From Allobosea robiniae (lineage in GTDB: Bacteria > Pseudomonadota > Alphaproteobacteria > Rhizobiales > Beijerinckiaceae), in assembly GCF_900102525.1 (NCBI RefSeq), contig NZ_FNBZ01000007.1, forward strand, positions 186,001 through 250,000: DNA of 64,000 nt, written 5' to 3'. A program made the position numbers and the translations under genes. Positions 1-26,748 of the stretch are shown in pieces. The first letter of the stretch is position 1. Each line of letters starts with the position of its first letter. Under the pieces are notes generated by a model. The model was given only the letters and a program-made list of their open reading frames with translations, searched no databases and was not told where the DNA came from.

Positions 1-245
1 TCATCGGCGCGATCGGCCTCGCCGCCGGCAAGCGTAAGGTCACGCTCCCGGCCGACCTCGCGGTCGATACCGAGGTCGATCTCGGCACGACCGATGGTGC
101 CTATTTCCTGCAGGCGCGCCTGCGCGTCAGCCTGCCCGGTGTCGATCGCGAACTGGCGCAGAGCCTCGTCGAGGAAGCCCACCAGACCTGCCCGTACTCG
201 AAGGCGACGCGCGGCAACATCAACGTGGAGCTGAGCCTGGTCTGA
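1..245 (+). CDS. ohr: Organic hydroperoxide resistance protein (Ohr/OsmC family), C-terminal part
   Basis: The window opens inside this gene; about 80 C-terminal residues are visible, read in the frame whose codons begin at position 3, ending at TGA 243-245. Ohr enzymes are small cytoplasmic dithiol peroxidases that reduce organic and lipid hydroperoxides. The visible part has the family's second-half signature: a VDLG stretch, LPGVD, then the second catalytic cysteine in CPYSKATRGNI followed by a short beta-strand end. The first catalytic cysteine lies outside the window, so completeness cannot be judged. The symbol follows the family, since OsmC paralogues share the second motif. Confidence 0.85.
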   Translation, partial: IGAIGLAAGKRKVTLPADLAVDTEVDLGTTDGAYFLQARLRVSLPGVDRELAQSLVEEAHQTCPYSKATRGNINVELSLV

Positions 246-272
246 CAAGGCCGCCGGCATGGAGGTGATGAC

Positions 273-416
273 ATGAGCATCATTCGCAAACGGAAGATTG
301 CCTTCATCCTGCTGGCGATCGTCGCGCTGGCCGCCGTGCCCTGCGCCTGGGACGCGAGCGATCCTAATGTCGCATCCTGGCTCCCGGCCGTGTTCTCGAC
401 ACTGGTCGGCTCCTAG
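273..416 (+). CDS. Small membrane or secreted peptide, 47 residues
   Basis: A 47-residue open frame starts with ATG at 273, behind a very strong ribosome-binding sequence (GGAGGTGAT, spaced three bases before the ATG), and stops with TAG at 414-416. The product has a basic N-terminus (RKRK) followed by a hydrophobic stretch of roughly 17 residues, then a short polar tail containing Trp and Asp. This fits a single-pass inner-membrane peptide or an uncleaved signal anchor. It lies 27 bases after the ohr stop, so it may be co-transcribed with it. No family was recognised; the call rests on the ribosome-binding site and the amino-acid pattern. Confidence 0.5.
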   Translation: MSIIRKRKIAFILLAIVALAAVPCAWDASDPNVASWLPAVFSTLVGS

Positions 417-555
417 CCGCAGCTAGGCGGGCCGGGCGTCAAGTAAGCGCCCGGCACCGCTCGATACGGTTTTCGGAGCTTCGCCGGAGCCTGTCCGGCG
501 GCTATGAGAAACCCTTGTTGCGAGGCGCCGGTCGGCGGAAGCGGAAAGTTCGGAC

Positions 556-1296
556 ATGGAGCATGTCGACCACATCCTGATCGTCGATGACGACCGCGAA
601 ATCCGCGATCTCGTATCGAGCTATCTCGCGAAGAACGGGCTTCGGACCTCGACCGCCGCGGACGGGCGGCAGATGCGCAGCTTCCTCGACGCCAACAGCG
701 TCGACCTCATCGTGCTCGACGTGATGATGCCGGGCCAGGATGGGCTCGCCCTCTGCCGCGAATTGCGCGCCGGCAAGCACAAGGCGACGCCGATCCTGAT
801 GCTGACCGCCCGCAGCGACGAGATGGATCGCGTCATCGGGCTGGAGATGGGCGCCGACGACTATCTCTCGAAGCCCTTTGCCGCCCGTGAATTGCTGGCG
901 CGCATCAATGCCGTGCTGCGGCGGACCCGGATGCTGCCGCCGAACCTGCAGATCAGCGAAGCCGGCCAGATCCTGACCTTCGGGACATGGCGGCTCGACA
1001 CGGTGCGCCGACATCTCCTCGATGCGCAGGGCACGGAAGTCGCGCTGAGCGGCGCCGAATACCGGCTGCTGCGCGTGTTCATCGACCATCCCCAGCGCGT
1101 GCTCAATCGCGACCAGCTCCTGAACCTGACGCAGGGGCGCGACGCCGAACTGTTCGACCGCTCGATCGACCTGCTGGTCAGCCGCCTGCGCCAGCGGCTC
1201 GGCGACGACGCGCGCGAGCCGACCTATATCAAGACGGTGCGCAGCGAAGGCTATGTCCTCTCGGTCCCCGTCGAGATCACGGAGCCCCGGTCGTGA
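556..1296 (+). CDS. OmpR/PhoB-family response regulator
   Basis: A 246-residue DNA-binding response regulator. Residues 1-120 form a receiver domain with the acidic pair in VDDD, the phospho-acceptor Asp in VLDVMMPG, Thr in MLTAR and Lys in SKPF. Residues 145-240 form a winged-helix trans_reg_C domain (SGAEYRLLRVF, DRSIDLLVSRLRQRLGDD, IKTVRSEGYVL). Its stop overlaps the GTG start of the sensor kinase next to it, so the two are translated together and are almost certainly cognate partners. The signal is unknown; the OmpR/EnvZ-like architecture suggests control of envelope or porin genes, which is inference only. Confidence 0.93.
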   Translation: MEHVDHILIVDDDREIRDLVSSYLAKNGLRTSTAADGRQMRSFLDANSVDLIVLDVMMPGQDGLALCRELRAGKHKATPILMLTARSDEMDRVIGLEMGADDYLSKPFAARELLARINAVLRRTRMLPPNLQISEAGQILTFGTWRLDTVRRHLLDAQGTEVALSGAEYRLLRVFIDHPQRVLNRDQLLNLTQGRDAELFDRSIDLLVSRLRQRLGDDAREPTYIKTVRSEGYVLSVPVEITEPRS

Positions 1297-2618
1297 CCGC
1301 GGCTGCCGCCTTCCGCGTGCTGCCCCGGAGCCTGCGCGCCCGCCTGTTCCTGATCCTGCTCGCGGGGCTGGCGATCGCCTATGGCCTCTCCTTCAGCGTG
1401 CTCTATGCCGAGCGCACCATGGCAGCCAAGGCGGTGATGTTCCGCACGCTGGAGAACGACGTCGCGACCTCGATCGCGGTTCTCGACCGGACGCCGGCAG
1501 CCGAGCGGCCGGAACTACTCGAATGGCTGAGCCGCAGCAACTACAGCCTCGCTCTGGGGCCGGGGCTTGCCGGCGTGCCCAACACCTCGGGTCACGGCCG
1601 CGAGATCGCGGCCAAGTTGGAGAGTGCCGCGGGAACGCGCTTTCCGCTGCGGGTCGAGGCCATCCCGGGCGAAGAGGGTCGCCTCCAGGCCCATCTCGCC
1701 TTGAGCGACGGCAGCCCGCTGACCATCGAGATCACACCGCGCGGCATCATGCCGGTCGCCGACTGGCTGCCCTATGTCCTGGTCGCGCAGATGATCCTGC
1801 TACTGGCCTGCACTTGGTTTGCGGTCCGGCAGGCGATCCGTCCGCTCGGCGAGTTCGCCGCCGCCGCCGACGCGCTCGACCCCAACGCGAAGAGCCCGCC
1901 TCTCAGCGAAGCCGGGCCCAGCGAAGTCGCCCACGCCGCCCGGGCCTTCAACGCGATGCGCGACCGGATCGCGCATTATCTCGAAGAGCGCGTGCAGATC
2001 CTGGCGGCGATCTCGCATGACCTGCAGACGCCGATCACCCGCATGCGGCTGCGTGCCGATCTGGCCGACGACACGCCCGAGAGGGACAAGCTCGTCAACG
2101 ACCTCCGCGAGATCGAGCGGCTGGTGCAGGACGGCATCGCCTATGCGCGCAGCGCCCATAGCAGCGGCGAGAAGAAGACGCGCATCGACCTCACCTCCTT
2201 CGTCGACAGCATCGCCTATGATTATCAGGATACCGGCAAGGCGGTGTCCGTATCGGGTCAGATCGAAGGGGTCGCCTCGACCAAGCCGCATGCGCTGCGG
2301 CGCATCCTGTCAAACTTCATCGACAATGCCCTGAAATTCGCGGGCGCTGCGGAAATCGCGGTGGAGCGCAGAGACGGCGGCGCGATCGCGATCACGGTGC
2401 TGGATCGCGGCCCCGGCATTCCCGAGGAGATGCTGGCCGCTTCCATGCAGCCTTTCTTCCGGCTTGAGCTGTCGCGCAACCGCGAGACCGGCGGAACCGG
2501 GCTCGGCCTCGCCATCGCCCAGCAACTGGCCGCGACGATCGGCGGCTCGGTCAGGCTCAGCAACAGAGCCGAAGGTGGTTTGGCCGCGGAAGTGATCATT
2601 CCTGACGCCAGGCGTTGA
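1293..2618 (+). CDS. EnvZ-like sensor histidine kinase
   Basis: A 441-residue membrane kinase. It starts at GTG 1293, which overlaps the regulator's TGA; a longer open frame continues upstream but only reads through the regulator gene. Two membrane segments (about residues 20-40 and 155-175) bracket a periplasmic loop of about 115 residues. A HAMP linker follows, then the dimerisation helix with the phosphorylated His in AAISHDLQTPITR, and an ATPase domain with N box (NFIDNALKFA), G1 (DRGPGIP) and G2 (GTGLGLAI). The order HAMP-HisKA-HATPase places it with EnvZ-type kinases that phosphorylate and dephosphorylate the adjacent OmpR-like regulator. Confidence 0.92.
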   Translation: MTAAAAFRVLPRSLRARLFLILLAGLAIAYGLSFSVLYAERTMAAKAVMFRTLENDVATSIAVLDRTPAAERPELLEWLSRSNYSLALGPGLAGVPNTSGHGREIAAKLESAAGTRFPLRVEAIPGEEGRLQAHLALSDGSPLTIEITPRGIMPVADWLPYVLVAQMILLLACTWFAVRQAIRPLGEFAAAADALDPNAKSPPLSEAGPSEVAHAARAFNAMRDRIAHYLEERVQILAAISHDLQTPITRMRLRADLADDTPERDKLVNDLREIERLVQDGIAYARSAHSSGEKKTRIDLTSFVDSIAYDYQDTGKAVSVSGQIEGVASTKPHALRRILSNFIDNALKFAGAAEIAVERRDGGAIAITVLDRGPGIPEEMLAASMQPFFRLELSRNRETGGTGLGLAIAQQLAATIGGSVRLSNRAEGGLAAEVIIPDARR

Positions 2619-2806
2619 TTATTGGCGTTTTTCATTGACCACCAACCTTGTAGATGCTTCCAGCAGCGATGGAAACGCAAGTTGGCCTTCCGCCCGGCTG
2701 TCCGCTTCCTGACAGAGATGACATGGCTGTGGCGCTTATGTCTTGTCGCTTTTCGCAAAGCTGCTGCAGGGGAGGTCTGGCCCGACGCCGAGTCAGGTAA
2801 TTGGCG

Positions 2807-3388
2807 TTACCGGCTGCGTCTTAGGCTCCCCAAGGCCAGGTCGGCAGTGTCGCTGAGTTGAGAATCTTTAGCGCCGCCGCGGGCCGCCACCTTGAGGCCC
2901 GAGCGCAGGATCAGCAACATACGGGCGGCGCTAACGGGGTCGATCTCTGTGTCGAGCTCACCGGCCTCCACTCCAGCGCGAACGCGAGCCGCGAATGCCG
3001 CAACGACGGCCGTGGCGGCAGCATCGTTCAGGGCATTGATCTCAGGGTCCGAGCGGCTGAACTCGACGATCGACCCGACACCCAGGCAGCCGCTCTCAAT
3101 CTCGTCGCTGGAACCTAGGCCCACGAGCAGAGCCGCTTTGATGCTTTCGGCAGGCGTCCCTTTCGCGAGAGCCTCGAGCATCAGCGCCAAGGAGCCGGCA
3201 TTGTATTTGCGGAGAGCCTCAAGAAACAGGCCGCGCTTGTCTCCGAAGGCGCCGTACAGGCTTTGCCGGCCGATTCCGATGCCTTTGATCAAGTCACTCG
3301 TCGAGGCCGCTTCGAACCCCTGGCGCGCGAACACCCTGATAGCACTGGCGATCGCTTCTTCCCGGTCGAACTCCGAAGGTCTGGCCAT
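2807..3388 (-). CDS. TetR/AcrR-family transcriptional repressor
   Basis: A 193-residue regulator with an N-terminal TetR helix-turn-helix (REEAIASAIRVFARQGFEAA, TSDLIKGIGIGRQSLYGAFG) and a C-terminal ligand-binding domain of the kind paired with short-chain dehydrogenases or reductases. It is transcribed away from the SDR gene at 3495 and shares a control region rich in ATCAGTC/GACTGAT motifs. The expected behaviour is repression of both genes, relieved by an unknown small electrophile or metabolite. The ligand cannot be deduced. Start ATG at 3388 gives a normal TetR N-terminus. Confidence 0.9.
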   Translation of the reverse strand: MARPSEFDREEAIASAIRVFARQGFEAASTSDLIKGIGIGRQSLYGAFGDKRGLFLEALRKYNAGSLALMLEALAKGTPAESIKAALLVGLGSSDEIESGCLGVGSIVEFSRSDPEINALNDAAATAVVAAFAARVRAGVEAGELDTEIDPVSAARMLLILRSGLKVAARGGAKDSQLSDTADLALGSLRRSR

Positions 3389-3407
3389 AACCCTCTCTAC
3401 AAATTGT

Positions 3408-3479
3408 TGATCGATCAGTCCAGAATATTCTTGACTGATTGGTCCATAACGACGAAAGGATTTTGGATCAATCAGTCAA
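3408..3479. promoter_or_regulatory. Divergent TetR/SDR operator region
   Basis: Between the divergent starts there are three copies of ATCAGTC or its complement. 3431-3445 and 3465-3479 form an inverted repeat matching at 14 of 15 bases, and 3408-3422 carries another half (GATCGATCAGTCCA). The layout is typical of an autoregulatory TetR operator controlling both directions. The SDR ribosome-binding site (GGAGG) lies just downstream. Confidence 0.7.
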
Positions 3480-3494
3480 TAATGGAGGTTCTCG

Positions 3495-4232
3495 ATGAAT
3501 GCCGCTATTTCCCCCTCAGCGCCGGCCCTGATTTTTGGCGGCGCCCGCGGCATGGGAGCAGCTATCGTGCGTCGCCTCGCGGCCGAGGGACGTCCTGTCG
3601 CCTTCACCTATGTCAGCGCGCCGGAGCGGGCTGCCACCCTCGTCCAGGCCGTTGAAACGGGCGGAGGGGCCGGGCTCGCCATCCGTGCGGACAGCGCCGA
3701 TCCCGAGGACGTGCGCCTGGCTGTCGAGACCGCTATCGAGCGCTTCGGCAAGCCAGGGGTGCTCGTGATCAATGCGGGCATCCTCATGAGTGGCGCCATC
3801 GATCAATTCGCGATGGATGACTTTGACCGCATGCTCGCCGTCAATGTGCGCGGCGTGTTCGCCGCGATCCGCTACAGCGCCCCACATTTGTTGGACGGCG
3901 GCCGGATCGTCACCATCGGAAGCAATACCGCCGACCGCATCGGCTCTCCCGCTTCCAGCGTCTACGCCATGACAAAGGCCGCCGTCGCTCAGCTGGTGCG
4001 CGGCGCCGCGCTCGACTTGGCCCCCCGCCAAATCACCATCAACAACGTACAGCCTGGTCCGGTCGAAACTGATATGACCGCCGACCTCATGGCGTACATC
4101 GCTCCCAAGCTGCCGCTGGGTCGTATTGGCAAACCGGAAGAGATTGCCGACCTCGTCGCCTGGCTGACTAGCCCCGCCGCTGGTTACATGACCGGCGCCA
4201 GCCTGACCATCGATGGCGGATGGACCGCCTGA
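3495..4232 (+). CDS. Short-chain dehydrogenase/reductase (SDR)
   Basis: A 245-residue classical SDR of the FabG-like group. The Rossmann cofactor motif is GGARGMGAAIV near the N-terminus; NAG in VINAGIL and the catalytic Ser and YxxxK (VYAMTKAAV) are present, with PGPVETDM and the conserved C-terminal MTGASLTIDGGW. The enzyme should use NAD(P)H to reduce a carbonyl or oxidise an alcohol; the substrate is not evident. A GGAGG ribosome-binding site precedes ATG 3495. Divergent pairing with the TetR gene indicates inducible expression. Confidence 0.92.
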   Translation: MNAAISPSAPALIFGGARGMGAAIVRRLAAEGRPVAFTYVSAPERAATLVQAVETGGGAGLAIRADSADPEDVRLAVETAIERFGKPGVLVINAGILMSGAIDQFAMDDFDRMLAVNVRGVFAAIRYSAPHLLDGGRIVTIGSNTADRIGSPASSVYAMTKAAVAQLVRGAALDLAPRQITINNVQPGPVETDMTADLMAYIAPKLPLGRIGKPEEIADLVAWLTSPAAGYMTGASLTIDGGWTA

Positions 4233-4308
4233 TCTGCCTTATGGCGCATTCGATTGCCTTCCGAATGCGCCGTTCGCAGATCACAGGCCAGACATGCCCT
4301 AACACATA

Positions 4309-4350
4309 GTCCGCTTTCGGGCAGGGGCCCAATGTCTGGCATTGGCGCAG
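4309..4350 (+). repeat. Direct repeat copy 1 (42 bp, flanks the 4523-5710 gene)
   Basis: This 42-bp block begins with a 14-bp sequence (GTCCGCTTTCGGGC) and ends with TGGCGCAG. The copy at 5882-5923 has the same length and orientation and matches at 31 of 42 bases, with the ends conserved and the centre diverged. Similar GTCCGCTTTCGGGC-type intergenic sequences are scattered in some alphaproteobacterial genomes. Confidence 0.6.
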
Positions 4351-4374
4351 GGGCGACGGATCGGGCCGTCTGCC

Positions 4375-4400
4375 CTGGCGTCCCAGATGAGTGGCGAACG
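4375..4400. other. Candidate degenerate attachment site resembling the tRNA-Arg 3' end
   Basis: CTGGCGTCCC at 4375-4384 is identical to 26671-26680, the 3' end of the tRNA-Arg gene that bounds the element on the right, in the same orientation. Over 26 positions the two agree at about 19, including a second block, CGAAC. An integrated element leaves such a duplication at its far end. The identity is short, so chance is not excluded. If real, the element would span about 22.3 kb and include the 395-residue gene at 4523. Confidence 0.25.
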
Positions 4401-4522: not shown

Positions 4523-5710
4523 TCAAACTGGGCGAATCTTGCGCAGCTTGCTGGCCAAGCTTGGCCGCCCGACAGCCGCGGCCCCATCTATTATAGCGTC
4601 GAGCAGGTTCGTCTTTGACATGATGTGGTGAACGAGCTCCCAGCGGGAGCGCGCAACCCGGTGCTCTTCGAGTGTGCGGTCGAGATATTGGTCATAGTGC
4701 TCGCCCTTCACTCGGTCGCGACCGATGTAGAACACGACTTGGAGGTCCGCGAACTCTTCGGGTGTCAGAAGCTGGAGGGTGGCGTCGTCCAGCTCACGCG
4801 CGATCCGCGCCTCTTCCGAGAACTTGGCCCAGTCCCGATCGAAATAGTCCATACCGAGATCGTCGGGGTCATAAGGCTTGACTGGGTGCGCGTTGGCCCA
4901 GAGATCAAGCGCCGCGACAGCCTTGTTGTCACTGAGGTGGCGAAGCTCCGACTCCAAGCCGACCGAGGCTGCGAGCGGGCGAGACTTCCGGATCGCAGTA
5001 ACTGCAGCTGAGAACTTGCGGCTGCTTAAACCGAAGCGCTCCATGGCCTCCCGCTTCCTGTCGTCGAAGCTCGGCTCGCGCCACGTCGCGTGGTCACCAA
5101 TAATGCTCGTGATTGTTACGAGGTCTGCCCGCGAGCACTCGTCGGTGTGCGTGCCGGTCGGCCGTTCCTCCTCCAGATCGAAGAGGCGCGTCTTGATGCG
5201 CTCCAGGATCGCGCTCATCGCGTCGATGCTGTGCCGGATTAAAGGAAGGTTCACGACCGCGAGCCCATCGAGGCTTCTGCCGCCATCCCGGTTCACTGCG
5301 TAGCGTAGCTCCTGGCCGTCCTGATCGATGTTCGCCAAGCTGACCACGAACGGCTCCAGCTCACCGATTAGCTGGTTGAGCCGCGCGTCGCCGATCTTCC
5401 CGTCGCGCAGATGCTGCCAATGCGATTGAATGTCGTGGTTGACCGGGTGGGCCCCCCCGATCATCCCCATCTTGTGCAGACGGTCGATGGCGAACTTGAG
5501 CGCAAGCTCCAGCCCATGGCGGCAGTTGTAGAGGATTGGCATCGCGAGTGTGTCGCGGCTTCCCATCAGACGCTTGTCGATCACCGCCGCGATCAGCTCG
5601 CGAGCGGCCTCCAGATAGCCGTCGACATAGTTGAGGGCGCTTCCCTGGACCCCCACGCACGCGTTCCACTGACTGTCGTGAATCGTCTCGAAGAATGGGT
5701 CAGTCGTCAT
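4523..5710 (-). CDS. Uncharacterised protein with HEPN-like N-terminal region
   Basis: I do not recognise this 395-residue protein by name. ATG 5710 is preferred (MTTDPFFETIHDSQW); a GTG 13 codons upstream is also in frame. Around residues 55-105 it has a YNCRHGLELALKFAI segment followed by a NHDIQSHWQHL segment, the RHxLEL...LK / HD(I/L)...W pattern seen in several HEPN-like helical families that often belong to abortive-infection proteins. The rest is acidic and helical, without nuclease motifs I can name. It stands alone between two 42-bp direct repeats and near the left edge of the phage-like element, a typical cargo position. A defence role is inference only. Confidence 0.6.
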   Translation of the reverse strand: MTTDPFFETIHDSQWNACVGVQGSALNYVDGYLEAARELIAAVIDKRLMGSRDTLAMPILYNCRHGLELALKFAIDRLHKMGMIGGAHPVNHDIQSHWQHLRDGKIGDARLNQLIGELEPFVVSLANIDQDGQELRYAVNRDGGRSLDGLAVVNLPLIRHSIDAMSAILERIKTRLFDLEEERPTGTHTDECSRADLVTITSIIGDHATWREPSFDDRKREAMERFGLSSRKFSAAVTAIRKSRPLAASVGLESELRHLSDNKAVAALDLWANAHPVKPYDPDDLGMDYFDRDWAKFSEEARIARELDDATLQLLTPEEFADLQVVFYIGRDRVKGEHYDQYLDRTLEEHRVARSRWELVHHIMSKTNLLDAIIDGAAAVGRPSLASKLRKIRPV

Positions 5711-5881
5711 TGCCCTGCCGATGCATAAGATGGTGGACGGCTCTGGCACATTACCGGCCCGAAACCATCGGGCCGCTCACGGCCAAGCTCGGCCTGTCCC
5801 ATTGAATCAGACCGGCTGCAAGCGGACTTTGCGAAGGACCGAGAGGGTCGATAACGGCCCATAGCGGGGCAGCGCCACTCG

Positions 5882-7008: not shown

Positions 7009-10000
7009 CTACGCCGCGATGGGCGTGGCCACTCTCCACGGCGGCGGCTTGACCTCACTCGGCAAGATGCCGTGCCTCGCGAGGATGATGGCAGCGCCGA
7101 ATTCGAGCCGCTGGCCGTCCAGTGTCAGAGCGCAGTGCCCCCACTTCTCCCAGGCGGCCTCAAGCTCGGCTACCGCGGCGTCACGGCGAGCGGCGCGGAT
7201 CTCCTCGATCGAGGCCGTGTCGGCATTGGGCAGCGTCGAGAGCGCCCGGTCGAGCGCATCGGCGGCCTTGCGGCGGGTGGTGGTGTCCGCCTCGATCAGA
7301 TCCCACACATCGAACCTGTCGAGCTCGCGACCGGCGATGTGAGAGGCGCTGCGCAGGGCCTCGCCGATGTTGGAAACCCACGGCGCGATCTTGACCTCGC
7401 GGGGCTCGGCGCCGCCGTCCTCCCAGACCCTAGCCGACGAGTAGCCGAGCAGCTCGCGGTGCTCCAGGCGCCCGATCGCGTCGGAGATCGCGGTGTCGGT
7501 ACCGATGTCCGGGGCGATCCGCCCGCCGGCGATGGGATCGAGCACGCCGCCAAGGCGACCGACGATCGAGGCGAGGTCGACGCGACGCGGATTGTCTTCC
7601 ATGAGATCGTACAATGTGACGACGTCATCGACGATGATGCCTTCGGGGAGGCAGGTAGCCATCACGAAAGCCACCGGCGCGGTCTCGTCGTCGCGGTAAA
7701 CGGGTCGGAGACGACCGATGGCCTGCCGGATCTCCTCCTCGCGGAACTGCCGATTGATGGCGTTGTGCCACTTCATGTGATCGGGGTAGCCGGTGCAGGC
7801 CAGCGTCAGGTCGCCGCCGTTGCGAAGCTGAACCCTGCGCTCGCCGACATGGGCACGCAGGTCCTTTCCGTCGATCTTGCCGGTCCCTTCGACGTCGTAC
7901 GGCAGCTCGTCGATTTCGCTGCAGCGGGCAAACAGGCCTGCATAGCCATCGATGACGGCGACGGGGCTCGTCATCCTGCCGACGCAGACCATGGCGCCGT
8001 GGCGTGAGGCGAAATTCAGGCCCTTCATGGCGCCGTAGTGTCCGAAATCCACGTTGTCGGGATACGCGCCCTGCATCAGGTCTCCGCGAACCGCCTTCGT
8101 GCTCGCGACCAGGACGCGGGTGTGGCCGTACATCGTCGCGACGCGGCCGATCATCGATCGTACCTCTACCTGGCGGTCGGCGGCACGGATGCGGCCGGCC
8201 ATGTCACGATGCCTGGCGGTCGGGAGCAGCGACAGGTCCGACGCGGTCTCGGGGATGAGGACGACCCGGAGGTGAAGCGGCACCTCGACCTCGGTAACCT
8301 CGATCTCGCGACCGGTGAAGACCACGCGGAGCAGGTCCGGATTCGCCGAGGCGTCCATGAGGAAGGTGGGAAGGCCGATGAAGTTCAGTTTGCGGAACCA
8401 CGCGACGCGGACGACGTCGCGCTTGCCGCCGGGCACGTCGTGCTCAGTGAGGTACTGAATCGCCCTGTCGGCGGAATGCTTGGCGAGGCGCTTGCTCTCG
8501 TCGAAATCATGACCGGAGATCTTAGCCTGCTCGCGAGACTTGGCGTCGAGCTCAAGCCAGGTCAGCCGCTCCTCGACGAGGGTCCAGAACCGCTTCTCCA
8601 GCCAAAGGTCCTTCGACTGCGGACGCGAGGTCAGCACCTCGACCTGGGCCATCGTCATCGCGGGCTTCACCTCAAGGCCGTCGTGATCGGCACGGCGGCA
8701 GACGTCCAGCGCGCTCTCGACGAGCTCGCGCCCTCGGAAGGGGCGCCCGTTCGAGCGGCGGTCGGTGAACTCGAAGAACGTCTGCGCGACATCCTTTCCG
8801 GCGATCAGGGCCCGGGTGGCGACCTCCGCCGCCTTCTCGCGGTCGATCACCAGCTCAAAGGCGTCGACGCCGGCCTCCTTGTCCTTCTTGCTGAGACGGG
8901 GCTCGGCACGGGGAAGGCGCAGGCTTTCGAGCGGCAGGAAGGCGACCTGCGCCACCTGCGACCAGATCGCTTCATCGATGAAGACCGCGCAGACGGACTC
9001 TTTCAACTGACGCGGGATGGGAAGGGTCAGATACGCGTGCGGCAAGAACACGATGTCCGCATGCTCCACCAGGGCCAGCTGCGCCATAGCCGCGCAAGCC
9101 GACGCCATCGGGCAGACTTTCTCCTCCCAGTCTCCGCCGACGGTTTTCACGCGCTGGCGGCACAGTCCCGAACCGGGCAGGCCGGCGGTGTAGAGAGCGG
9201 ACATCTGCTCCGAGTAGTGACAGCCGGCGGTGATCTTGCCCATCCACGCCATCGAACGCAGTCCGCTGGCTTCCTTCAGGACCTCGTCCCAAATGGCGCT
9301 GATCTGCTCGGGCGAGGCCTCTTCCAGCGCGGTCCCCTGCACCTCGGCGATGTTGTTATGAGAGGGCAGCATGAAGGCGATCGGCATGCCGAGGCTGCCG
9401 CGGGCCTGAACCAACTCGCGGATGATGCGGACCGTCATCGTCGTCTTGCCCGATCCGGTCGGGCTCTTGAGGAGACGGATGGCTTCGAGCGCCTCGGACA
9501 TTGCCCGGCGCAGGCCTGCCCGGCGGATCGAGGAGCGCTTCTCGTCATCCTCGGCGGCGGCGAGCTTGCCGACATGCTCGGGATCGAGGGCGAGCGCGTC
9601 GCGAGCGTCCCAGAGCGGGGTCAGGAAGCCGCGAATCGTCGCATCGATCGTCGCGGCGGTCTGCTGACCAGCGGCGATTCGCGCGTCTTTACTTAGAAGC
9701 GCGCGCTGCGCGGCCACCGATCCGCAGGCCGGCGTCGCAGAGAGAATGTTGGACGGCGAGCGGCGGCGCTTCTTCGCGGACCGGACAAAATCAAGGTCAG
9801 CGTCGGCGCGGCGCTCGATCGCGAAGACACCCTCCGGCTTCGCGTAAGCTTTGCCGTCGTCAGCAATATGAACAGTGCGCTCGCGGAAGGCGCCTTCGAC
9901 GAGCTTCGCCGCCGTGCGGTCGAACAGTTCAGCGACGCGGCGCTCGATGGCCGCGTCGGAATGCCAGTCCCCGCTCCGCTCGACATAGCGTAGGGCTTCC

Positions 10001-11220
10001 TCAATCGCGCGCTTCCTGATCTGCGCCAGCGCGGGGCCACCCGCGCGTACATGAGGCGCGTTGTGGAGCACCCAAGCCAGGGTGCGATCCATGGTCCAGT
10101 CCTTGCGGCCATCGAAGACGACGTCGCGGCCGCCGCGGACATCCCAAACGCCCCGACGCTGCCTGTGTCCCGGCGTGGCGATGCGCAGCGTCGGGTCGTA
10201 CTCGATCTCGTCGAAAGCACTCGACACCGAGGTCGCGCGTACGAAGCCGGCGATGGGTTCGACCTCATGCAGGCGCCGCAGGAACTCGTCGACCTTGTCC
10301 GCATCGATCTCGGGCAGCGTCTCCGGCCCACTCTCATTCGGCTGGGAGAAGTTCTCGCCCCACGGCCAGAAGAACGGCCGCTGCGTGCGGTGGTGGTACC
10401 CATAGATCGTGATCAGCGATCCGCCGGCGAGCACCTCGATCGCATCCGTCGAGCCGGCCTCGATCGCGGCGGCGGAGTTCGAGGCGAAGTTCAGTTTGCG
10501 ACCCCGCATTTGTCGGGATGCGGACAGCGCTTCGCGGTAAAGGAGGACCCACTTCGGCGCCATACCCTGGCGCTGCATCGGGGTGTGGCCTAGAACCTCG
10601 ATAGCCAAGGCGCGGATCTTCTCCGCACGGAAGGCATCGTAGACGTCGATGTCGATGACGCGGACGCGTTGGCCCGGCTCGGTGCCTTTACCGCAGATCA
10701 GCGCGACGTTGTCCCGACCGGACCAAATCGCCATCGCGGAGTGGTCAGCATCGGTGACGCCGTTCTCTACGAAGGCTGACCATCGGATGATCTCGCGGCC
10801 GATCTTACCCGGCTTCCGGCTGCCATTCCGGCTCTGCGGTATGACGGGCCAGCCGAGCGCGTGGGCCTGGCTGCCGAAAGTCGAGAAGGGTTCGAGCTCA
10901 ACCTCGCGGCCGCCGATTCGCGGAGCGGAAGGGTCCACGACCTTCGCGCCAGGGAACCGCGCGGCGAAGGCGGCGCCCAAAATGTCGGCGGCGGAACGTC
11001 CGTCTGCCGGCTGATTTTCAAGGACTATGTTCCTATCATCGCAGCTCTTAGCGACTCCTTTCAGAGGGGAAACGACCCCCTCGGAGGCTAGGACTGAATT
11101 CCCTTGGATTTCAATTCGACAAATCTTTGTCACTTTGACCAGCCTCACAGAAAGCAACGCGGAAGAATCGGCATCTCGGTGCCGTTCCATCAATGCTAGC
11201 ACCGATGATGCATAGCGCAA
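7009..11220 (-). CDS. Primase-polymerase fused to an SF2 (XPD/DinG-like) helicase
   Basis: A 1403-residue replication protein. Residues about 115-290 look like a bifunctional primase/polymerase (AEP) domain: GWPVIP, the metal-binding D-x-D in VIDIDVYD (190-194), and LAGGSLITIYGYHH. Residues about 580-1180 form a helicase: Walker A SPTGSGKTT (586-594), Walker B IDEA (748-751) and motif VI QAIGRLR (1166-1172). Four cysteines (667, 687, 703, 709) lie between Walker A and B, followed by ADIVFLPHAYL, which is how XPD/DinG helicases hold an iron-sulfur cluster. TTG 11220 is chosen because AAGGG precedes it; ATG 11190 is the alternative. It should prime and unwind element DNA. It faces the 11346 operon across a shared control region. 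Confidence 0.85.
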   Translation of the reverse strand: MRYASSVLALMERHRDADSSALLSVRLVKVTKICRIEIQGNSVLASEGVVSPLKGVAKSCDDRNIVLENQPADGRSAADILGAAFAARFPGAKVVDPSAPRIGGREVELEPFSTFGSQAHALGWPVIPQSRNGSRKPGKIGREIIRWSAFVENGVTDADHSAMAIWSGRDNVALICGKGTEPGQRVRVIDIDVYDAFRAEKIRALAIEVLGHTPMQRQGMAPKWVLLYREALSASRQMRGRKLNFASNSAAAIEAGSTDAIEVLAGGSLITIYGYHHRTQRPFFWPWGENFSQPNESGPETLPEIDADKVDEFLRRLHEVEPIAGFVRATSVSSAFDEIEYDPTLRIATPGHRQRRGVWDVRGGRDVVFDGRKDWTMDRTLAWVLHNAPHVRAGGPALAQIRKRAIEEALRYVERSGDWHSDAAIERRVAELFDRTAAKLVEGAFRERTVHIADDGKAYAKPEGVFAIERRADADLDFVRSAKKRRRSPSNILSATPACGSVAAQRALLSKDARIAAGQQTAATIDATIRGFLTPLWDARDALALDPEHVGKLAAAEDDEKRSSIRRAGLRRAMSEALEAIRLLKSPTGSGKTTMTVRIIRELVQARGSLGMPIAFMLPSHNNIAEVQGTALEEASPEQISAIWDEVLKEASGLRSMAWMGKITAGCHYSEQMSALYTAGLPGSGLCRQRVKTVGGDWEEKVCPMASACAAMAQLALVEHADIVFLPHAYLTLPIPRQLKESVCAVFIDEAIWSQVAQVAFLPLESLRLPRAEPRLSKKDKEAGVDAFELVIDREKAAEVATRALIAGKDVAQTFFEFTDRRSNGRPFRGRELVESALDVCRRADHDGLEVKPAMTMAQVEVLTSRPQSKDLWLEKRFWTLVEERLTWLELDAKSREQAKISGHDFDESKRLAKHSADRAIQYLTEHDVPGGKRDVVRVAWFRKLNFIGLPTFLMDASANPDLLRVVFTGREIEVTEVEVPLHLRVVLIPETASDLSLLPTARHRDMAGRIRAADRQVEVRSMIGRVATMYGHTRVLVASTKAVRGDLMQGAYPDNVDFGHYGAMKGLNFASRHGAMVCVGRMTSPVAVIDGYAGLFARCSEIDELPYDVEGTGKIDGKDLRAHVGERRVQLRNGGDLTLACTGYPDHMKWHNAINRQFREEEIRQAIGRLRPVYRDDETAPVAFVMATCLPEGIIVDDVVTLYDLMEDNPRRVDLASIVGRLGGVLDPIAGGRIAPDIGTDTAISDAIGRLEHRELLGYSSARVWEDGGAEPREVKIAPWVSNIGEALRSASHIAGRELDRFDVWDLIEADTTTRRKAADALDRALSTLPNADTASIEEIRAARRDAAVAELEAAWEKWGHCALTLDGQRLEFGAAIILARHGILPSEVKPPPWRVATPIAA

Positions 11221-19187: not shown

Positions 19188-20777
19188 TCAATGACGGGCC
19201 GCGAAGGCCTGCCGGCCGGCGACGATGGTTTCGATCATGCGGCGGACGGCGCGCATCGAGCCGCCGGACCAGTGCTCCGCAACGAGGTCGAGTTCCTCGC
19301 CATCCAGGTCCGGCATCCAGCGATCGTCGGTGTTCCGCTCGCGGCGCAGGTCAGCGACGATCTGCCGTGCGACGACGGGCAGATGCTCGGCTCCGGGCGC
19401 CGGGACCGTCAGCACGCGCAGGCGGTCGAGGAGCGGCGAGATTACCCCGTTGAGGCCGTTCGCGGTGGCTAGATAGCTGACTTGCGAGATGTCGACGGGC
19501 AGCTCGATGCCTGTGTCCAGGATCGCACGGGACGTCGCCGGTTCGAGCATCGGGACGAGCGCGTCCTGGAGATTGCCGTTGTGGCGGCTCGTCCCGGACT
19601 TCTCGATCTCGTCGACCACGACGACGGGGTTCGCCGCCATCGCCCGCAGGACGGCTTGCAGGCTGGTCGACCCGCGAGCTGTCGCCCATTGAGCGTTCGT
19701 TCCTGCAAACGACCCGTCCGCTACGGCGGACGCGCTGTATAGCGTCGGCTCTAGCCCGATGGCACGGGCCAGCGCCATAGCCAAAGACGACTTGCCGGTG
19801 CCGGGCGGCCCGAGCAGCAGCGTCGGGCGCAGCCGAATCCAGTCTGTGCCGACGAGGTCCATCAGGATCGTCTCGATCGCCGACGCCGCCCACGGCCACC
19901 GCGCGCAGAGATCCCGAGCGACCGCGCCGAGGTCACCTTCGAAGCGGATCAGCGGCAGCGCCTTGCCTGCGATATCGTAGAAGGCATATGCCGGGCTGTC
20001 GGAACGCGGCTTCTTCACCATGGTAGGCAAGACGACGATCTCGGGCTTCTTCGGCGTCGCCAAGATCACCGGCCCATCTTCCGGCTCGGGGATTTCGTCT
20101 TCGTCCATGAAGTGCTCGATCACGGCCGCATCGCTCTTGGGGCGGGCGTTCTGGTACTGGTCGAGCCATTCCCGCATCGATGTCGCGGTGTCACCAGCGC
20201 GGCGGCGGAGGTCGAGCATCAGCGCTACCCGCCGCACGACACCGATGACATGGCGCTCCGGCATGCCAACCGAGGTCATCGCCGTCTCCAGCAGCCCCGC
20301 GCGCAGGTGAGATTGCGGAACATGCGCGAGCCGAGCGAGCGCGTGCACGGCCACCCGCCTCTGCGCAGCTTCGTCGCCGAGGTTGCAGAGATAGATATCA
20401 GCCCGTACCTCGCACTCGGCGAGCCGCAATAGATACGCGGGATTCCATTCCGGGCGCCGCCGCATCGCGGCCTTCCGAAGCGCAAGAACGGGCGTGAACG
20501 ATGGCTTGTTGGCCATGGCACGCAGAGCGCGCTCGACCGCAGGTGGAAGCGCAGGCAGGCCCGGCGGGCTTGCATCATGCAACATCCCAACGGCCCACAT
20601 CGCGGCGTCGGTTTCCCAGTTCAATTCGCGGGGGTGCCAGCCGGCGAGAAGCTCAGTCGTAGTCGGGCTGTCGGTCCCGGCCATATGAGCTTGCTTGCGC
20701 TGCTCGGCGGCGATGACGTCGGGTACCAACATCGCGATTTCGCGATCGGTCTCGTCATATTCGCCGTTCGTGCTCAT
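19188..20777 (-). CDS. Lon-type AAA+ ATPase without protease domain
   Basis: A 529-residue protein. ATG 20777 is chosen because GGAGG lies at ideal distance; a GTG two codons upstream is also open. The first 270 residues are helical and unfamiliar. Residues about 318-475 form an AAA+ module: Walker A LLLGPPGTGKSS, Walker B VVVVDEIEK, the pore-side AGTNAQW region, sensor 1 SYLATANG and an arginine near LLDRLRVLTV. The sequence after Walker B (LQDALVPMLEP) is like Lon, but no Ser-Lys protease domain follows. It likely remodels a protein or complex. It heads a five-gene minus-strand operon behind two palindromic operators. Confidence 0.85.
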   Translation of the reverse strand: MSTNGEYDETDREIAMLVPDVIAAEQRKQAHMAGTDSPTTTELLAGWHPRELNWETDAAMWAVGMLHDASPPGLPALPPAVERALRAMANKPSFTPVLALRKAAMRRRPEWNPAYLLRLAECEVRADIYLCNLGDEAAQRRVAVHALARLAHVPQSHLRAGLLETAMTSVGMPERHVIGVVRRVALMLDLRRRAGDTATSMREWLDQYQNARPKSDAAVIEHFMDEDEIPEPEDGPVILATPKKPEIVVLPTMVKKPRSDSPAYAFYDIAGKALPLIRFEGDLGAVARDLCARWPWAASAIETILMDLVGTDWIRLRPTLLLGPPGTGKSSLAMALARAIGLEPTLYSASAVADGSFAGTNAQWATARGSTSLQAVLRAMAANPVVVVDEIEKSGTSRHNGNLQDALVPMLEPATSRAILDTGIELPVDISQVSYLATANGLNGVISPLLDRLRVLTVPAPGAEHLPVVARQIVADLRRERNTDDRWMPDLDGEELDLVAEHWSGGSMRAVRRMIETIVAGRQAFAARH

Positions 20778-20803
20778 CGCCACCCTCCATCGCTTGGAGG
20801 GTT

Positions 20804-26671: not shown

Positions 26672-26748
<77 letters not shown>

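Follow-up and report, generated by a model that had tools for sequence, protein, structure and literature searches.

A single open reading frame of Allobosea robiniae joins a primase-polymerase (prim-pol) of the archaeo-eukaryotic primase (AEP) type to a superfamily 2 (SF2) helicase related to DinG and XPD. It lies on the minus strand of the window, the 64,000-nucleotide stretch that was analysed (contig NZ_FNBZ01000007.1, positions 186,001 to 250,000; the contig is called C16 below). With moderate confidence the fusion is interpreted as a primase-helicase of alphaproteobacterial mobile elements (phage-like loci, integrated islands and large plasmids), driven by an XPD/DinG-type and presumably iron-sulfur (Fe-S) motor. 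A DinG/XPD-type motor in place of superfamily 3 (SF3) or DnaB is the best reading of the helicase half. Further copies of the fusion are found in alphaproteobacteria, on plasmids and chromosomes, and on two IMG/VR contigs. Its features are listed here, with conservation counted over the rows of an alignment of 30 full-length homologues; similar pairs remain among them (L019/L020, L022/L054, L023/L052 and L044/L045, among others, the members of each being adjacent in the tree), so 30/30 amounts to fewer independent cases.

7009-11220, minus strand: open frame encoding the prim-pol/helicase fusion (TTG start, 1403 codons), the coding part probably being 7009-10980 or 7009-10938
10231-10893, minus strand: AEP prim-pol domain, residues ~110-330 (phrog_1156, Pfam in homologues, pRN1 ORF904 fold)
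10645-10653, minus strand: motif I, D190-x-D192 (each aspartate 30/30)
9886-10188, minus strand: helical domain that follows the prim-pol (residues ~345-445) and resembles the helical region in the pRN1 primase
7501-9537, minus strand: XPD/DinG-like SF2 helicase, residues 562-1240 (the modelled stretch; AlphaFold2 and Foldseek)
9442-9465, minus strand: Walker A, SPTGSGKT, residues 586-593 (G591 and K592 30/30)
9220-9222, minus strand: C667, putative cluster ligand 1 (30/30), in register with DinG C120
9160-9162, minus strand: C687, putative cluster ligand 2 (30/30), no counterpart column in DinG
9112-9114, minus strand: C703, putative cluster ligand 3 (30/30), in register with DinG C199
9094-9096, minus strand: C709, putative cluster ligand 4 (30/30), in register with DinG C205
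8971-8976, minus strand: Walker B, D749-E750 (30/30)
8371-8970, minus strand: insertion of ~200 residues from Walker B to motif III (D749-D956 spacing 207; 178-273 across the 30 rows)
8344-8355, minus strand: motif III, D956-A-S-A (D956 and A957 30/30)
7705-7725, minus strand: motif VI, Q1166-xxG-R1170-x-R1172 (Q, R and R 30/30)

The SF2 motifs I, II and VI are present in order in the alignment. Residues 562-1240 were modelled with AlphaFold2 from 20 sequences (predicted local distance difference test, pLDDT, 83.5; predicted template modelling score, pTM, 0.83), and a Foldseek search of the PDB with this model returned 25 matches at E<=0.001. Ranks 1-15 are chains of DinG (6fws_A, E=3.6e-12), XPD, CasDinG and TFIIH/nucleotide excision repair complexes, the last of which we take to be XPD. 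In VIA-align, 470 residues were aligned with E. coli DinG (6fws_A; Z 18.8, root-mean-square deviation (rmsd) 6.6) and 428 with S. aureus DinG (9ii8_A; Z 17.0), while XPD-type complex chains were aligned over 464-507 residues and archaeal XPD over 384-429. The insertion between Walker B and motif III may be Arch-like, as this is presumably the place of the Arch domain in XPD/DinG; the interval used for comparison in DinG runs from D248 to S459-x-T461. Structure comparison puts DinG/XPD ahead of other SF2 groups, in line with the XPD/DinG-like helicase named in the preliminary description of this DNA, which is refined here to a sister family of the two.

Sequence profiles agree. DinG was first in a profile search of the PDB, with a weak E of 0.013, and a second profile found FANCJ (0.0026) and DinG (0.043) among RecA chains that match in Walker A only (best 0.0007). 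An hhalign comparison with a profile of seven DinG sequences gave P 94.7 and E 6e-8 over the stretch from the third cysteine to Walker B. The pre-cut region between motifs I and II had a local score of 84.5 with the DinG profile, where 100 column-permuted controls reached 23.4 at most; when Walker A was removed, the score was 64.3 and the control maximum 19.3. Other SF2 groups were rejected: reverse gyrase, DEAH-box proteins and UvrB fall below DinG/XPD in Foldseek, and RhlE, represented by one DEAD-box sequence instead of a profile, reaches 25.1, slightly more than the highest permuted score. With a limit of E<=1, the PADLOC model for type IV DinG matches 16 of 20 family members, the best with 8.6e-10 and the window protein with 2e-4; Cas3 models also match, more weakly. 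With the window protein alone, Pfam gave nothing but a sub-threshold ResIII match. A phmmer search of the PDB picked up two unrelated proteins, both weakly (best E 0.27), and NCBIfam was uninformative.

Four cysteines had been singled out in the preliminary description as lying between the Walker motifs. C667, C687, C703 and C709 do lie between Walker A (K592) and Walker B, and they are invariant in the homologues, in an alignment with 29 invariant columns in total; the protein's other 11 cysteines are present in 1-18 of the 30 sequences. An earlier alignment of 14 rows had counted them in 13, 14, 13 and 14 rows. In the exceptions for C667 and C703 (L026 and L034) a cysteine sits a few columns away, and these counts therefore depend on the alignment. 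With the DinG profile, hhalign paired C703 with C199 and C709 with C205, and C667 fell on C120 after the region between motifs I and II had been cut out. DinG C120, C194, C199 and C205, which we take to be the cluster ligands, are invariant in seven aligned DinG. Stand-alone plasmid helicases of the same family (Methylobacterium, Agrobacterium) also show the cysteines in alignments. The four cysteines presumably hold a [4Fe-4S] cluster.

The N-terminal half had been described as an AEP-type primase region with D-x-D at 190-192, and both the fold and the conservation of these residues bear this out. The family phrog_1156 (DNA primase) matches residues 110-319 (E=6e-13), and nine of 14 homologues match Pfam Prim-Pol (PF09250) at E<=1 (best 2.7e-10). 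In a Foldseek search with a predicted model of residues 100-561 (pLDDT 80.8, pTM 0.56), ranks 1-7 are all prim-pols, from pRN1/Sulfolobus and phage NrS-1 (E 5.8e-5 to 1.9e-3). VIA-align gave Z 13.3 with 1rni (rmsd 3.3, 186 residues aligned) and Z 13.2 with 9aam over 263 residues, the helical domain included; the 9aam match covers model residues 10-344 (~residues 109-443 of the protein), with helices at model residues 273-342. An acid (E or D) is found at position 262 in 30/30 rows and is assigned by position to what we take to be AEP motif III. The place expected for motif II reads R217-x-G-x-x-P-K/R, with R217 and K/R223 each in 30/30 rows, and the invariant H276 comes later than this place.

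The open frame at 7009-11220 is real, but its start is over-extended in the protein of 1403 residues first described. A chance frame is ruled out by the full-length homologues with conserved active sites. The frame's single match in its own 5.28-Mb genome (21 contigs) is itself. G+C at the third codon position is 0.5-0.6 before residue 81 and 0.7-0.9 over the following 220 codons, and homology to relatives starts at about residue 105-112. Because of this step and the homology start, the true start is probably the TTG at 10980 or the GTG at 10938 (~1323 or ~1309 residues), and the first ~80 codons are probably untranslated.

Searches for relatives recovered the fusion from several kinds of replicon. 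Among plasmids, tblastn matched 18 records, four of them with a single place covering at least 80%; the eight carriers examined are plasmids of 115-1324 kb. Phage records (31) matched in the prim-pol part only. Of 397 genomes searched in the order, 12 had a match, as had nine of 385 in the class (both counts include the window's own genome); several of these match in the prim-pol alone or the helicase alone. A profile scan of genome contigs yielded 20 loci from 75 candidate stretches, including Thalassospira, Salipiger, Methylobacterium, Devosia, Acetobacter and Pelagibacterium. A scan of viral contigs with the single protein found no match; the profile scan of viral contigs (IMG/VR) found three loci, two of which match along almost the entire core, and a further such scan hit these three contigs again. 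Identity to the window protein over the core is 23-33% (14 sequences). Omitted from the 30 rows were L021 of Acetobacter persici, which is split between two frames, L057/L032, whose N-terminal part is in a different frame, the partial matches L060, L061 and L064, and L028, L030 and L031, which repeat L048, L058 and L056 (contigs of equal length).

Sequence identities in the two halves are correlated (Mantel r 0.70; none of 2000 permutations reached this value). In a FastTree phylogeny of 46 helicase domains, rooted on seven DinG, 29 of the 30 fused sequences form one clade with a weak support of 0.74, and the family branches apart from the DinG sequences. Recent capture of a host DinG was rejected on this ground and because the window's genome has no match to E. 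coli DinG, which matched two of the 21 genomes searched. The fused L026 (Rhodovastum linear plasmid, 138-4388) groups with stand-alone helicases of other alphaproteobacterial plasmids (L076, L077 and L078). Prim-pol and this helicase subfamily may therefore have come together on more than one occasion, or have separated in some lineages.

A search of 398 genomes of the phylum with the helicase profile found 14 with a match, the window's own included. Seven of these loci were examined: the prim-pol profile matches L101 well and L100 weakly, and L104 looks like DinG itself. L098, L099 and L102 are proteins of 985-1301 residues in which a related cysteine-containing helicase follows N-terminal ~350-450 residues; these N-terminal parts have no match to the prim-pol profile.

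The fusion gene sits in a mobile element. Two features of its setting are used below:

26672-26748, minus strand: tRNA-Arg(CCT), the island's right attachment site (synteny break and repeat)
19188-20783, minus strand: AAA+ ATPase gene, a candidate partner (PF00004, E=4e-13)

An island of ~70 kb that holds the fusion gene is inserted in the tRNA-Arg(CCT) gene and spans C16:142327-212713 (in the window, up to 26713). The right flank is matched in all 31 genus genomes searched, the window's own included, and in the five relatives compared synteny ends at or near the tRNA at 26672. It resumes 70 kb leftward, at C16:~142.3 kb, directly in L124 and after ~1.4 kb in L120; in the remaining three the right flank alone lay within the stretch compared. 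The 3' part of the tRNA and the left point share an exact repeat, 42 nt or longer (three successive 40-mers). Within the window itself no second copy of the tRNA end occurs at 14 nt or more; that copy is the one 70 kb leftward. Next to the left end, on the island side, is the gene for a tyrosine integrase that has an arm-binding domain (C16:142577-143995).

Together with the fusion gene, the island's right end encodes a RuvC-like resolvase, a lysozyme, an Rz-like spanin, an exonuclease, a further endolysin-type protein, a phosphoesterase and the AAA+ ATPase. Among ten proteins scanned in the left part are the integrase, a Gabija-like pair and two methylases, and the others serve transport, redox reactions or metabolism. 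The pair consists of an OLD-type ATPase with TOPRIM beside a UvrD-like helicase (C16:155525-159148, locus L123; left of the window, in the same island), which we take to be the make-up of Gabija defence. Because the island mixes phage-like, defence and metabolic genes, it may be a composite of nested insertions. The AAA+ ATPase family is found upstream of the fusion gene on the same strand in 13 of 34 neighbourhoods (the window and 33 loci, up to 10 kb on each side, some shorter). The ATPase is a possible loader or replication partner, and its N-terminal ~300 residues match no family. Tail tape-measure genes lie downstream on the opposite strand in L050 (Devosia faecipullorum) and L062, the two loci tested. 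A 408-residue frame at 4523-5749 of the window (minus strand) has a strong coding bias and no Pfam or PHROGs match at E 0.01.

DinG and XPD family helicases move 5'->3' and carry a Fe-S wedge. Passages of PMC10910872 describe 5'->3' movement of the type IV CRISPR DinG-HNH, and passages of PMC4538821 describe primer synthesis and extension by pRN1 ORF904. From these families and from ORF904 we infer how the fusion would work. The helicase would move 5'->3' along the lagging-strand template, and its cluster domain and Arch-like insertion would split the duplex. The pRN1-type prim-pol, tethered through the helical domain, would prime the freshly exposed strand and might also extend those primers. 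Such a system would parallel T7 gp4 or DnaB-DnaG within one polypeptide, assembled from other components. In tailed phages and islands, a non-hexameric Fe-S helicase of the XPD/DinG lineage, joined to a prim-pol, could even be the main fork helicase in place of an SF3, superfamily 4 (SF4) or MCM ring, and the cluster could confer redox sensitivity on the element's replication; this stronger proposal is tentative and rather doubtful.

Several observations weigh against a replicative primase-helicase of the DinG/XPD type. The Foldseek template modelling (TM) scores of ranks 1-15 are 0.33-0.43, and the helicase domains therefore cannot be superposed as a single unit; in VIA-align, DEAD-box proteins score up to Z 16.9, but over ~270-290 residues. 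Column 752, which corresponds to the DExH histidine (H251, invariant in seven DinG), holds H in 0/30 rows, and the residue following the Walker B D-E is mostly R. The second motif VI arginine is at +6, one residue closer to Q than the +7 of DinG. Since the DExH histidine is absent in 30/30, the helicase is classed as a sister family of DinG/XPD, not as DinG or XPD proper. In the prim-pol half, Pfam Prim-Pol does not match the window protein itself at E<=1, and the histidine of AEP motif II, a motif we take to be sxH, is not seen at the expected place in the 30 rows. Helicase relatives without prim-pol occur on plasmids, and the helicase is therefore able to work without it. The terminase phrog_2, the only family searched, is absent from the island (its one match in the genome is on contig C17). 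One result speaks for the replicative reading: DnaB_C had no match in the two virus contigs or the seven plasmid records searched, and it matches in the window's genome and in 14 of 14 control genomes (over the cut-off in 10 of the 14). The virus contigs may be fragments, however, and plasmids without their own DnaB prove little, because large plasmids normally borrow the host's. The closest known motors (DinG, XPD and FANCJ) are repair, roadblock or accessory helicases.

This last point favours accessory fork rescue, in which the DinG-like part would clear R-loops, G-quadruplexes or protein roadblocks, the prim-pol would reprime downstream, and host DnaB would replicate the element. The eight plasmid carriers presumably run on the host replisome, and the host genome encodes DnaB and lacks an E. 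coli DinG match, as such a role would have it. However, a prim-pol fusion of the plasmid-replication type, the virus contigs and the tail-gene neighbourhood suit a replication module better, and fork rescue is considered unlikely, if still the best of the rivals to the primase-helicase reading.

It is improbable that the protein is a primase-helicase without an iron-sulfur cluster, its four cysteines binding Zn2+ or being purely structural. The first two cysteines are 19 residues apart in 28/30 rows, and the variable distances that follow (12-37 residues from the second to the third and 5-17 from the third to the fourth), together with the lack of a DinG column for C687, are what this alternative has in its favour. 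Against it, three cysteines are in register with the presumed DinG ligands within a stretch that aligned far above the permuted controls, a G-K motif precedes C667 much as G-R precedes C120 in DinG, and the location between motifs I and II is the place of the cluster in XPD/DinG. A role in defence or anti-defence, in which the protein would unwind invading DNA as CasDinG or DdmD do and the prim-pol would sense nucleic acid, is very improbable: the PADLOC type IV DinG and, more weakly, Cas3 matches, the DdmD chains at Foldseek rank 16 and ranks 18-21 and the Gabija-like pair in the same island point that way, but no nuclease family is found among the Pfam hits (E<=1) of 14 members, and the prim-pol active-site acids are conserved, unlike in a mere sensor. 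Neighbour families were annotated in part, which leaves room for a defence partner.

If the primase-helicase reading is true, an XPD/DinG-type motor joins the list of partners of mobile-element primases, and the fusion offers a bacterial single-chain system in which to test a monomeric Fe-S helicase coupled to primer synthesis. It would bear on the open question of what Fe-S clusters do in DNA-processing enzymes, as a presumed cluster and a primase would be found in one protein. Relatives on large plasmids and phage-like DNA suggest an unusual mode of self-copying for mobile elements. Annotations would also be corrected to include the helicase: in six annotated plasmid records the relatives are named 'bifunctional DNA primase/polymerase' (in one, with the second half a 'hypothetical protein'), and the ~650-residue helicase is unnamed in all six.

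Among known systems, E. coli DinG (6fws), XPD, Rad3 and FANCJ share with the fusion's motor the overall fold, the four cysteines between motifs I and II (three in register), the ~200-residue insertion between motifs II and III and a motif VI with Q and R. Unlike them, the fusion family has no DExH histidine, has the second motif VI arginine at +6 and the second cysteine elsewhere, and is fused to a prim-pol. CasDinG of type IV CRISPR has the same helicase fold, and the type IV DinG model of PADLOC recognises most members; unlike CasDinG, the fusion has cas-like genes nearby in just one of six annotated plasmid regions (Bosea RAC05, ~6-10 kb away).

On the primase side, pRN1 ORF904 and the S. 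islandicus prim-pol (1rni, 3m1m, 9aam) have the same order of prim-pol, helical domain and helicase in one chain. The motor of ORF904 is of the SF3 type, whereas that of the fusion is XPD/DinG-like, and the fusion has RxGxxPK/R at the place of motif II. Passages of PMC4538821 assign ORF904 a helicase/translocase domain. The primases of Stenotrophomonas phage Suzuki and Bordetella phage BPP-1 (Bbp29) have a homologous prim-pol (profile E 1.6e-32 and 2.2e-29, seven-sequence set), and the helicase profile does not match them at the inclusion threshold (E 0.41 for Suzuki; unreported for Bbp29). TOTE conflict systems were considered as an AEP-helicase parallel and dropped, as the passages of PMC12458937 give TPR, OB, TBP and Effector, with 'primase' occurring 0 times. 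XPD and DinG have 0 occurrences in the main texts of PMC5862659 and PMC4538821 (a library-wide count gives a single 'ding' for PMC5862659), and among the matches listed from the open-licence literature, a body that most subscription papers lie outside, no description of a prim-pol/XPD-DinG fusion was found. The nearest precedent is the All3500 type, an AEP fused on mobile elements to domains remotely similar to SF2, as given in passages of Kazlauskas et al. 2018 (PMC5862659). By the description there, with which alone the contrast is made, its SF2-like part is linked to pVOG1685/9714, the latter closest to the UL9 origin-binding protein, and its AEP belongs to the PrimPol-PV1 supergroup. Fusions of AEP and helicase on mobile elements are known, and the present one differs in having a motor of an XPD/DinG-like sister family.

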